Source: Gimesia algae (GTDB lineage: Bacteria > Planctomycetota > Planctomycetia > Planctomycetales > Planctomycetaceae). From it: a stretch of DNA of 64,000 bases. Within the stretch, counting starts at the first letter, position 1. Every line of letters begins with the position of its first letter. The notes beneath the pieces were generated by a model, which had not been told where the DNA came from, searched no databases, and was given only the letters and a program-made list of their open reading frames with translations. Shown in pieces: positions 29,812 to 34,341 of the stretch. The stretch lies in NCBI RefSeq assembly GCF_007746795.1, contig NZ_CP036343.1:1678531-1742530 (forward strand). Direction: 5' to 3'. Both the position numbers and the translations under genes were made by a program.

Positions 29812-30801
29812 TTATAAAACAGTACTGCGACTCAACTGATCAATGGCAGAGGGAATGGATTCAACCACAATATCTGCAGCCCCCGACAGTGTAAAAACCA
29901 GAACAATCAGACTGATCATTGCTCGAATCGGAAAACCGATCACCAGAACATTGATCTGCGGGACGGTGTGCCCGAGATAGCCCATTGAAATCGAGATTAA
30001 AGCACTGACAGCCAGTAAGGGGGCTGCCACTTTAATCGACAGTACCAGCGACTGATGCATCAGCGTCTGCAGCAGATCCAGGGTATTCGTGGATACGATC
30101 CCTTCCCCTACAGGAAAGACCTGGAATGTATCAATCAGGGACGACAACATTAACAGATGGCCGTTGACCGGTTCCATCAGCAGAAATACGGTGATCCCTA
30201 TAAAATACAGATACTGACCGCTAAGTGAAGCATTCATGTCAAAGCCAGGATTGAAGACCTCTCCCAGCGCCATTCCGGCCTGCTGATCAATCATCTGACC
30301 GGCCATCTGCAGACTGAGTAGAATGATGTAAATCCCCAGCCCCAGCGAAAAACCTAACGTCAATTCCCCCAGAATCGACCAGGCATAATCCAGCAGGGAG
30401 TTCGGCATCCGCGTCACGAACCGGTAATCATTGACCGTCAGTTCTTGAGTCGCCTGGCGCCCCGCTGTGACGACAAGGTCATTAAATCGGTCCTGGAGAT
30501 GTTCCGGAACTTCATCCTGACTCAGCCTCTGGTTCTGGTTGCTGTCCAGTTGATAAAAGCCGACTGTCGTCTGGTCATGCAATGTCGGAGTAATGAGCAG
30601 AGACAGGCTCAGGATCAGCAGAATTCGGATATTCGTGGGAAAAATCGGTTGCCCGAACACAGGGCCGATAATCATCAGGCCACTGATCCGCACGACCACC
30701 AGCGTAAACGCATAAAACTGCAGCATCGCCCACTGCAGCAGCTGTCCCGGAGCCAGCTGCAGGATCGGATTCATCACATATTGATCGAGGAGTTCGCTCA
30801 C
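29812..30801 (-). CDS. fliR: Flagellar export gate protein FliR with inserted EF-hand-like loop
   Basis: Core export-gate membrane protein that forms a helical assembly with FliP and FliQ. 329 residues, about 70 longer than usual (around 260). The extra length lies between the second and third hydrophobic segments, residues about 76-135. It contains an EF-hand-like calcium loop at residues 86-97 with Asp86, Asn88, Asn90, Leu93 and Glu97 in the ligand positions, followed by an amphipathic helix VPEHLQDRFNDL. The rest is normal FliR, for example DQQAGMALGEVFNPGFD and SVLGIYIILL-type helices. GTG start. It lies between fliQ and flhB. Confidence 0.93.
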   Translation of the reverse strand: MSELLDQYVMNPILQLAPGQLLQWAMLQFYAFTLVVVRISGLMIIGPVFGQPIFPTNIRILLILSLSLLITPTLHDQTTVGFYQLDSNQNQRLSQDEVPEHLQDRFNDLVVTAGRQATQELTVNDYRFVTRMPNSLLDYAWSILGELTLGFSLGLGIYIILLSLQMAGQMIDQQAGMALGEVFNPGFDMNASLSGQYLYFIGITVFLLMEPVNGHLLMLSSLIDTFQVFPVGEGIVSTNTLDLLQTLMHQSLVLSIKVAAPLLAVSALISISMGYLGHTVPQINVLVIGFPIRAMISLIVLVFTLSGAADIVVESIPSAIDQLSRSTVL

Positions 30802-32121: not shown

Positions 32122-33015
32122 CTATGCATGGTCCGACTCCGCACGCTCATTCAGGGACTGGCGAGGTGAATGCAGCAGCTTCTGCTGTAAACGGCTCACA
32201 GCCGAGTCATAATCTGAGTACTGGTCCTGTTCCGGAACTGGTTCTGATTCGTCAGCGTCCTGAAATGGTTCCGCTGCTGACCGTGTAAAACGCGACTCCT
32301 CTTTTTTCGATACGCTTTGAAACAGGTTTCGAAACGAATTCGCAGATCGAGCCGACTCAGCGCCTTCCCGGCACATGCCCGTGATCAGATCGACCTCTAC
32401 AGGATCAGCAACTTCACTCAGCATTTCCAGTCCGGCAGGAGAGGAACCAAGAATCAGAATCCGGGATCCACACCGCACGAAGTGGATAGTCTGCCTGGCA
32501 TCCAGTGGTTTTTTTCCCAGCACTTCCATCACTTCACGGGGCAGACCCGCTGACCCGAGCGGATGATGTTTCTTAAATAACTTTGCCCCTACCAGGATAA
32601 TCGAGATCACTACCAGCAAAGCACCGAATGTCCCCCAGATTGAGGGAGCCCGTTTACTCACGCTTTGACTGGAGGAGCCTGAACCGGTCTGCTTCTGACG
32701 CTCCAGGGGAGTGATGAGGTTAGGCTGGGACCTCCGCACATCGACTCCGCTGCGCTGCGGCAATGCCTGGGTTCTCGACTTGTGCATTGCATTCGAATCG
32801 GAAACGACGTTCGGCCGACTGGTTTGTGCGACTGGTCGCGGTGTGCCGCTTGGCATCGGCTGCTGATATTTTTGCTGGAACTGCCCTGTCGAATGATTCT
32901 GGTTTCGAAATTCGGATGGCTGTGTAAAGGCCGGATTCTCTGCTGAATGCACAAGAGAAGTACAGGTCAGAGAACACAGCAATGCCAGCAGAGATCTATT
33001 ACAAAGACGAATCAT
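32122..33015 (-). CDS. fliO: Flagellar biosynthesis protein FliO
   Basis: About 297 residues: signal peptide ([19 protein letters not shown]), a long periplasmic Gln/Ser/Pro-rich stretch, one transmembrane helix ([20 protein letters not shown]), and the FliO cytoplasmic domain [36 protein letters not shown]. FliO is a chaperone-like factor that stabilises FliP. The long periplasmic part is unusual, as E. coli FliO has about 120 residues. The ATG at 33015 with an AAAGGA site is preferred over a GTG one codon before. Its position between fliN and fliP is the standard one. Confidence 0.88.
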
Positions 33016-33074
33016 CACATCCTTTACGTCGTCAGTCTTCCCGCTTCACAGGAACACCGATTTCCAGCTGCCAA

Positions 33075-33758
33075 TTACAACTCCGGAGAAATAATCTCTG
33101 CGACACGGACGCAGAAATTATCATTCAAAACCAGCACTTCACCTCGAGCGATAATCCGACCATTCACCAGAATATCAACCGGATCCCCCGCCAGTTTATC
33201 CAGAGGAACTACGACGCCCTCTTTCATTTTTAACACTTCTTCAATCAGCAGTTCAGTTCTGCCTAGCTCAATACACAGGTCCAGCTCTACATTTTGCAGC
33301 GATGACAGTTTCATCGCTTCTTCCGGATTACTGGCCATTGCCTCAAAATTGGGGAATGCAAACGCTTTGGTTCCACCCAGATCATTGGGAATCCCGTTTC
33401 CAGGTCCCAGGTTAGGGGAAATCGCTGCAGCCAGATTTGCTTCCGCCTGATTTAATAATGCTTCCGTCTCTTCGCGTGAAGAAAACGGCATCCCTGACTG
33501 ATCGTCTGCCCCGGAGGAATGCTGATTGAACAGAGCATCGATATCATCGTTGTTGACGACTTTTCCCGGCTTGTCTGCGCCTTCGTTTTCTGTGGCTCCG
33601 GCCCCTTGCAGTAATTTTTCAATATCATCAGGATCGAGAAGATTATCTGAAGCCTCTCCCCCGGCAGGAGGAGAATCTGCAGGCGCACCCTGTCCCTGAG
33701 CATTCAGCAGTTTTTCTATTTCAGAAGGATCCAGAAGATCATCATTCTCATCAGCCAC
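33075..33758 (-). CDS. fliN: Flagellar motor switch protein FliN with repeated EIDALL-type motifs
   Basis: Switch-complex (C-ring) protein. The C-terminal FliN/SpoA domain (residues about 140-227) is clear: LQNVELDLCIELGRTELLIEEVL, LAGDPVDILVNGRIIARGEVLVL. The N-terminal 110 residues hold repeated short motifs, LLDPSEIEKLLNAQ (8-21), LLDPDDIEKLLQGA (40-53), VVNNDDIDALFNQH (67-80) and a weaker SREETEALLNQ (94-104), in acidic linkers. They resemble the CheY-binding EIDALL peptide at the N-terminus of FliM and FliY. fliM is missing from its usual place just upstream. GTG start with AGGAT. Confidence 0.92.
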   Translation of the reverse strand: MADENDDLLDPSEIEKLLNAQGQGAPADSPPAGGEASDNLLDPDDIEKLLQGAGATENEGADKPGKVVNNDDIDALFNQHSSGADDQSGMPFSSREETEALLNQAEANLAAAISPNLGPGNGIPNDLGGTKAFAFPNFEAMASNPEEAMKLSSLQNVELDLCIELGRTELLIEEVLKMKEGVVVPLDKLAGDPVDILVNGRIIARGEVLVLNDNFCVRVAEIISPEL

Positions 33759-33786: not shown

Positions 33787-34341
33787 TTATTGTGTCATTG
33801 TGCGATATTCGCTGATCACAGTCTCGATGACATAACTTTTCTTGAGAACCTTGTTAACGGCCTCTTTCATCATGCGTTTCATCGTACTTAACTGCGGATC
33901 ATTCAGATCACTCAGACTGGATTTTCGCACGACTTCAATGACTGCCTGCTTGACACGTGCTTTATTCTGCTCTTTGACCATGGAATCAAAATCAGCAGCA
34001 GCCCCCTGCTCGACCAGTGCTACCAGATTAAATGTGACATGAATCGTCGCTCCTGGCTCGGCGATATTGTTTGTCACGCTGAAGTTATCGACAGTCACTT
34101 CGGCTGTCGTCACCTGCAGATTTTCACTCCCTTTTGAAAGTGAATCTTCTGCCAGTTCAGCGGGTTGAGCCGGTGGAGTCAGCAGCCAGTATGAAATGCC
34201 GATCTGCAGGATGATTACCAGTAGTAACAATCCTCCAATTTTCAGCAGCTTTCCTTTCGATTGCCCCTGGGATGCTTCTTCCGTTGAAGCAACTGCCTCC
34301 GTATCGACACCAGGCTCTTGCGTTTCGGTGTCTGTTGCCAC
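33787..34341 (-). CDS. fliL: Flagellar basal-body-associated protein FliL
   Basis: 184 residues: cytoplasmic N-terminus of about 30 residues, one transmembrane helix (KIGGLLLLVIILQIGISYWLL) and a periplasmic domain. The C-terminal half has the stomatin-like FliL pattern (ARVKQAVIEVVRKSSLSDL ... MKEAVNKVLKKSYVIETVISEY). FliL surrounds the stator and supports torque. Sequence identity to textbook FliL is weak, so the call also rests on position after motA/motB and before fliN. GTG start with AGGAG four bases upstream. Confidence 0.82.
   Translation of the reverse strand: MATDTETQEPGVDTEAVASTEEASQGQSKGKLLKIGGLLLLVIILQIGISYWLLTPPAQPAELAEDSLSKGSENLQVTTAEVTVDNFSVTNNIAEPGATIHVTFNLVALVEQGAAADFDSMVKEQNKARVKQAVIEVVRKSSLSDLNDPQLSTMKRMMKEAVNKVLKKSYVIETVISEYRTMTQ

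Follow-up and report, generated by a model that had tools for sequence, protein, structure and literature searches.

FliN of Gimesia algae carries several peptides resembling the CheY-docking peptide of FliM

What is the role of a flagellar FliN that bears, ahead of its ordinary domain, several copies of a peptide of the type that docks CheY on FliM and FliY, in a gene cluster without fliM? The question is raised by a stretch of 64,000 nucleotides of Gimesia algae (positions C1:1678531-1742530 of a 7.93-Mb, one-contig genome, G000), the whole of which is called the window below. A preliminary description of this DNA, made from the sequence alone, had placed four motif copies in residues 8-104 of FliN (33447-33737), noted that fliL and fliN lie 28 bases apart, found no fliM in the window, and proposed that FliN could take over the signal input from FliM. 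The residue positions agree with a 227-aa open reading frame on the minus strand, and the spacing agrees with the coordinates of the two reading frames (Table 1). EIDALL is described as the motif through which FliM and FliY dock CheY; CheY-P is said to bind this peptide first, with high affinity, before it binds at a second site (PMC9126983).

The fliN locus and a distant fliM

FliN of the window exceeded the curated NCBIfam cut-off for fliN (TIGR02480, 95.3 bits against 84.05) and, with its SpoA domain, the Pfam cut-off for PF01052 (79.7 bits against 23.8); a Pfam search returned no domain besides FliMN_C. With the FliY model NF005995 it reached 90.6 bits against a cut-off of 218, over residues 134-226 only, and so did not match the middle part of FliY. 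Its closest organism-named homologue among the matches listed is FliN of Gimesia maris (P0002, 90% identical). Upstream, fliL scored slightly below the cut-off for PF03748 (23.5 against 24.6 bits). A plasmid search with the flagellar cluster in 'distant' mode returned 40 records, the best five of which were fliP/SctR-type pieces of about 200 bases. FliR, encoded in the window at 29812-30801 (minus strand), has an EF-hand-like loop, DSNQNQRLSQDE, that appears to lie between membrane segments and may be a calcium site of the export gate; counting the FliR of the window, 16 of 39 FliR-like frames have the loop (the other carriers being L132-L136, L138, L139, L141, L142, L144-L146, L153, L207 and L208), 18 are without it, and five could not be judged.

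Table 1. Positions of the features discussed. Plain numbers refer to the window, C1 to the genome contig, and L or P labels to other loci and proteins.
Feature	Position	Strand	Evidence
fliN, 227 aa, GTG start	33075..33758	-	TIGR02480, PF01052 over cut-offs
FliM-like peptide copy 1, FliN residues 8-21, LLDPSEIEKLLNAQ	33696..33737	-	16.6 bits, model helix 11-22
FliM-like peptide copy 2, FliN residues 40-53, LLDPDDIEKLLQGA	33600..33641	-	7.8 bits, model helix 43-52
FliM-like peptide copy 3, FliN residues 67-80, VVNNDDIDALFNQH	33519..33560	-	2.8 bits, model helix 70-79
Ala-rich longer helix, FliN residues 94-113	33420..33479	-	helix 95-113, pN/pS 0.06, 5.5 bits
FliMN_C (SpoA) domain, FliN residues 153-223	33090..33302	-	PF01052 1.5e-22; Foldseek to FliN chains
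fliL, directly upstream of fliN, 28-base gap	33787..34341	-	PF03748
fliO, downstream neighbour of fliN	32122..33018	-	PF04347 31.3 bits, cut-off 22
fliM	C1:2936317-2937426 (L001:1159-2268)	-	PF02154, TIGR01397
Third FliMN_C protein, 297 aa	G000:C1:161017-161907 (L210:7015-7908)	-	
Array protein	L256:6094-7833 = L241:727-2466	-	
Array protein	L257:119-2092	+	
Array proteins, further	L244-L252; P0122-P0241		

The genome encodes a single FliM, outside the window and 1.2 Mb away (PF02154 match at C1:2936659-2937237). This protein exceeded the TIGR01397 cut-off (300.5 bits against 219.6), begins, from the likely ATG, with MADVLSQNEVESLLSAL, and has a docking-type peptide of its own, VLSQNEVESLLSAL. 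The lack of fliM that had been reported therefore holds within the window and fails for the genome, where a PF02154 search for the missing protein found a normal FliM complete with its peptide, and a FliM-less switch was rejected. The gene is an orphan, far from the flagellar cluster, and adjoins genes that read, from their translations, as proA and rplT. PF02154 was matched in all 25 genomes of the class that were studied, and in all 13 class genomes whose fliM and fliN share a contig, the two genes are 0.48 to 3.9 Mb apart; the fliM-free gene order is thus ordinary for this lineage. Because a fliM with its peptide is present in the same genome, FliN is not a substitute for a missing FliM.

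A third protein with a FliMN_C domain begins with MSGFSQENVESIF, which includes a faint FliM-like peptide (P 0.031). It is full length in 15 of the 17 genus genomes searched (own included), is split by a stop in another and was not matched in one that is 74% complete; no flagellar neighbour was recognised at its locus. As an orphan gene product with only a faint peptide, it was set aside as a switch component.

FliM-like peptides on FliN in Gimesia and across Planctomycetota

FliN was scored with a 14-position matrix trained on 43 N-terminal peptides of FliM from the phylum, with 25 distinct sequences among them; FliN itself was excluded from training. The peptides came from 43 of 47 FliM frames; of the four that gave none, G019 and G170 are in a wrong frame, G241 is very long and was scanned over its first 130 residues, and the peptide of G217 is degenerate. 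Three short FliM-like peptides stand out on FliN of the window. The score of copy 1 was equalled by the best window in none of 3000 shuffled N-termini, while the best window of a shuffled N-terminus was as good as copy 2 in 1.1% and as good as copy 3 in 6.1% of shuffles. With its low score and this frequency in shuffles, copy 3 is weak taken alone; it is present in all eight genus genomes read. FliM peptides score 24.8-42.2 bits, being the training set of the matrix, and judged by their sequences the FliN copies are clearly related to them, yet lower-scoring, copies 2 and 3 well below.

The fourth of the copies first reported proved different. Its best matrix window (residues 92-105) reaches a score attained in 2.1% of shuffles, and residues 95-113 form a single 19-residue helix in the model of FliN; as a longer helix, it was set apart from the three short peptides. 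It continues Ala-rich and LLNQAExxLA-like, as the same region does in many FliN of the class. Conservation across 48 homologues reaches 90% or more at E99, L102, A105, L109, A110 and A112, and block 101-110 has a mean pLDDT of 81, the highest value of the N-terminal arm. Since the corresponding region scores copy-like on the FliM matrix in two other genomes (13.5 bits in G268, 7.0 in G280), the later helix may, by sequence, derive from a peptide copy.

Across eight genomes of the genus, own included, pN/pS was 0.02 in the domain and 0.35 in the linkers; copies 1, 2 and 3 gave 0.04, 0.11 and 0.18, and the later helix 0.06. These ratios are rough because synonymous sites are near saturation (pS 0.65-0.73). 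With values below those of the linkers, a neutral repeat was rejected for copies 1 and 2 and is unlikely for copy 3. Copy 1 residues L8, E13, I14, E15 and L17 are conserved at 90% or more in the 48 homologues.

An AlphaFold2 model built from 48 sequences, poor overall (mean pLDDT 63, pTM 0.31), contains helices at residues 11-22, 43-52, 70-79 and 95-113 of the arm, short helices being easily predicted, and gives the linkers 22-40, 55-66 and 82-92 a pLDDT below 50. Foldseek matches at an E of 0.001 or better were FliN, FliM and related C-ring or secretion-ring chains, FliN of T. maritima and Salmonella among them, with alignments of 68-98 columns, as expected for the C-terminal domain. From this model we infer that the arm is probably laid out as short peptides of a binding type along a flexible, disordered chain.

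For the spread of the copies, the class sample comprised 34 genomes with a FliN match (own included), of which 25 were used; the nine left out (G022, G077, G092, G121, G167, G226, G234, G257 and G288) are probably not flagellar, with weak FliN matches and weak or no FliM. In other classes 130 genomes matched, 45 of them, chosen for high scores and not at random, were read and 44 were used (G021 is cut by its contig), and 79 named loci were reduced to 76 (L198 and L200 are cut, L205 is in a wrong frame). The 25 class N-termini gave 42 matrix hits at 6 bits or more, seven of which fall on the later helix, against 0.37 in shuffles; the 44 FliN of other classes gave 12 against 0.47. A pattern count, which sets the later helix apart and misses some copies with an altered ending, yielded 51 copies against 1.6 after shuffling in the class and 149 against 3.8 in the named loci. 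Because matrix hits and pattern counts far exceed those in shuffles, a chance motif was rejected.

In the class, at least one copy is present in 24 of 25 flagellar-type FliN, and two or three in 18 (none in one protein, one in six, two in nine, three in nine). The 76 named loci have none in two cases, one in 20, two in 33 and three in 21, and 120 homologues among the matches listed have one in 33, two in 45, three in 40 and four in two. In the 44 FliN of other classes, 32 have none, 10 have one and two have two. P0036 and P0054 each carry four nearly identical copies, and in P0036 linker pieces repeat along with the copies, which indicates a recent duplication. The description of several docking-type peptides per FliN is therefore upheld at the level of sequence by the matrix, the constraint, the model and the counts. 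A precomputed Pfam family, PF28396.1, is assigned to some FliN homologues (P0010, P0011, P0013, P0018, P0019 and others) and may cover part of the N-terminus; four FliN homologues rescanned with Pfam gave no match to it.

Possible roles of the FliN arm

In model bacteria, how many docking peptides the motor has depends on how many FliM it contains, and FliY carries a single copy of the peptide. Like FliM, Gimesia FliN is a C-ring protein with a short N-terminal peptide of LSQxE(I/V)xxLL form, but here three copies stand on FliN, while FliM retains its single one. With FliN of E. coli and Salmonella it shares the C-terminal fold, as seen in the Salmonella chains, and differs in a longer N-terminal arm with peptides; to our knowledge, the enteric arm has none of this kind. 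FliY of Bacillus subtilis likewise combines a FliN-type C-terminal domain with a CheY-binding motif at its N-terminal end (PMC8809382), whereas Gimesia FliN gives no match to the middle part of FliY and repeats a motif that is single in FliY. Tandem docking peptides on FliN appeared in none of the titles and abstract openings among the literature matches listed, a set in which subscription journals are mostly not represented.

We consider it reasonably probable that the FliN arm supplies the lower C-ring with extra docking sites for CheY-P, beside the N-terminal dock of FliM itself. FliN of the class would begin with a probably disordered arm bearing helical peptides of the FliM/FliY CheY-docking type, three in this protein and as many as four in others; a conserved helix distinct from them comes next, and the ordinary FliN domain last. 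The extra docks would lie beside the place on FliN where, in E. coli, tethered CheY reportedly acts. In that species a fusion of CheY with the FliM peptide associates with FliN (PMC7355467). The arm could serve as a multivalent tether for CheY-P near its second site. At the E. coli FliM:FliN ratio of 1:4, with about 120 FliN per motor (PMC4161238), there would be 12 docks on FliN against one on FliM per unit, or about 360 FliN docks per motor beside about 30 of FliM.

The genome encodes CheA (PF02895, 1.6e-16) and CheW (three PF01584 matches). Some 0.46 Mb from the window lies an operon that reads cheB-cheY-MCP-cheW-cheA (L130), with names mostly, and for cheB and MCP only, from translations. 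The putative CheY of this operon is a 122-aa receiver of which residues 4-117 align with solved CheY chains (best 2.1e-25); its best NCBIfam model is CheY, at 87 bits and below the cut-off of 189.

No CheA or CheW match was found in four of the 25 class genomes (G217, G238, G264 and G272), which have 0, 2, 1 and 1 FliN copies, where the 21 with CheA average 2.24 (p 0.010), a comparison that ignores kinship, eight of the 21 belonging to one genus. Named loci averaged 1.68 copies in the 19 without CheA and 2.05 in the 57 with it (p 0.045), and in the other classes copy number and CheA were not associated (p 0.74). Earlier counting rules had given p 0.019 for the class and 0.16 for the named loci, then 0.032 and 0.045; once the later helix of G264 was seen to have been counted as a copy, the rule was widened, which lowered the class value from 0.032 to 0.010 without altering the other tallies. 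Because the genomes are related and the named loci come mostly from draft metagenome assemblies, the tracking of chemotaxis genes by copy number is weak and a hint at most. In G217 (L113, L129), one of the genomes without CheA and CheW matches, FliN is without copies and the FliM peptide is degenerate.

The other three genomes without CheA and CheW (G238, G264 and G272) keep copies on FliN, those of G238 below 6 bits, and the peptide on FliM, and this survival counts against the CheY reading. It would suit an arrangement in which the partner of the peptides is not chemotaxis CheY but another CheY-like receiver and FliN integrates a different signal, much as with the Cle proteins of Caulobacter, where CleD likely binds the N-terminal motif of FliM (PMC7534056). 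However, since the FliM peptide persists in these three genomes as well, the pattern is not peculiar to FliN, and no candidate for such a receiver was identified; we regard this alternative as unlikely.

The arm might also be a passive store of CheY-P, or a brake, that alters the sensitivity of the motor without itself producing switching. Several copies on flexible-looking linkers would fit such a store, as would the limited CheY-P pool of a model motor (PMC7064772). Sequence cannot tell it from a productive role, which is favoured by the position of the peptides on FliN, a reported partner of tethered CheY in E. coli, and we think a mere store or brake quite unlikely. An improbable third alternative is that the peptides are unrelated to receivers and serve, as amphipathic helices, in C-ring assembly or in export, binding, for example, FliH, FliM or FliG. 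Helix 95-113, constrained and with six residues conserved at 90% or more, would be in keeping with such an interface, as would the copies that survive without CheA in some genomes, but the match to FliM peptides lies far above shuffles, a copy number from 0 to 4 is unlike a fixed assembly interface, and 32 of 44 FliN of other classes have no copy. That FliN has replaced FliM as the CheY receptor, as first proposed from the copies and from a window without fliM, is refuted as stated and scarcely credible, for an intact FliM peptide is encoded in the same genome and is kept in 24 of the 25 class FliM frames.

Added docks for CheY-P on the FliN arm, the reading that we prefer, would bear on the long-standing question of how CheY-P occupancy is converted into sharp motor switching. 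With none to four docking-type peptides per FliN, the class offers a natural series on docking valency, which bears on whether valency sets the sensitivity, the cooperativity or the buffering of the motor.

Peptide arrays in other planctomycete proteins

With the four-copy region of P0036 as a query, a metagenomic protein of 426 aa (P0121) was found that carries seven copies by pattern, eight by matrix and nine by eye; it had no Pfam match over cut-off, and its C-terminal part was not recognised. It led to a protein type that occurs in another family of the phylum (f13), in which nine of the ten genomes searched gave a match; the Gimesia algae genome gave none. Among the best 120 of 154 homologues, each has 2 to 10 FliM-like copies by pattern, the copies precede the most hydrophobic segment in all 120, and 764 matrix hits were counted against 8.7 in shuffles. 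The hydrophobic segment looks membrane-spanning, which suggests that these proteins are probably membrane-anchored; the part behind it is TPR-like at best, with one match below cut-off, and where the proteins are named it is mostly as hypothetical protein. As far as the sequences tell, FliM-type peptide arrays are not confined to a single kind of protein in the phylum.

It is conceivable, and we put it forward tentatively, that planctomycetes evolved multivalent antennas for CheY in the form of peptide arrays, on FliN in the class of Gimesia and, in another family, on proteins that are probably membrane-anchored and whose arrays reach nine or ten copies. If so, most docks of the motor would sit on FliN, 12 per FliM at the E. 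coli stoichiometry, and the length of an array would tune the capture of CheY-P by the motor or the membrane.

The array proteins are perhaps receiver-docking arrays at the membrane. In one genome (G172), an array gene lies in a same-strand run with a gene for a receiver protein (PF00072), with a histidine kinase three genes away on the other side, and a receiver-like frame was found near the array gene in three of nine loci with short flanks. Arrays in more than one kind of protein and receivers nearby thus suggest, short of proof, that receivers are the partners of the arrays.
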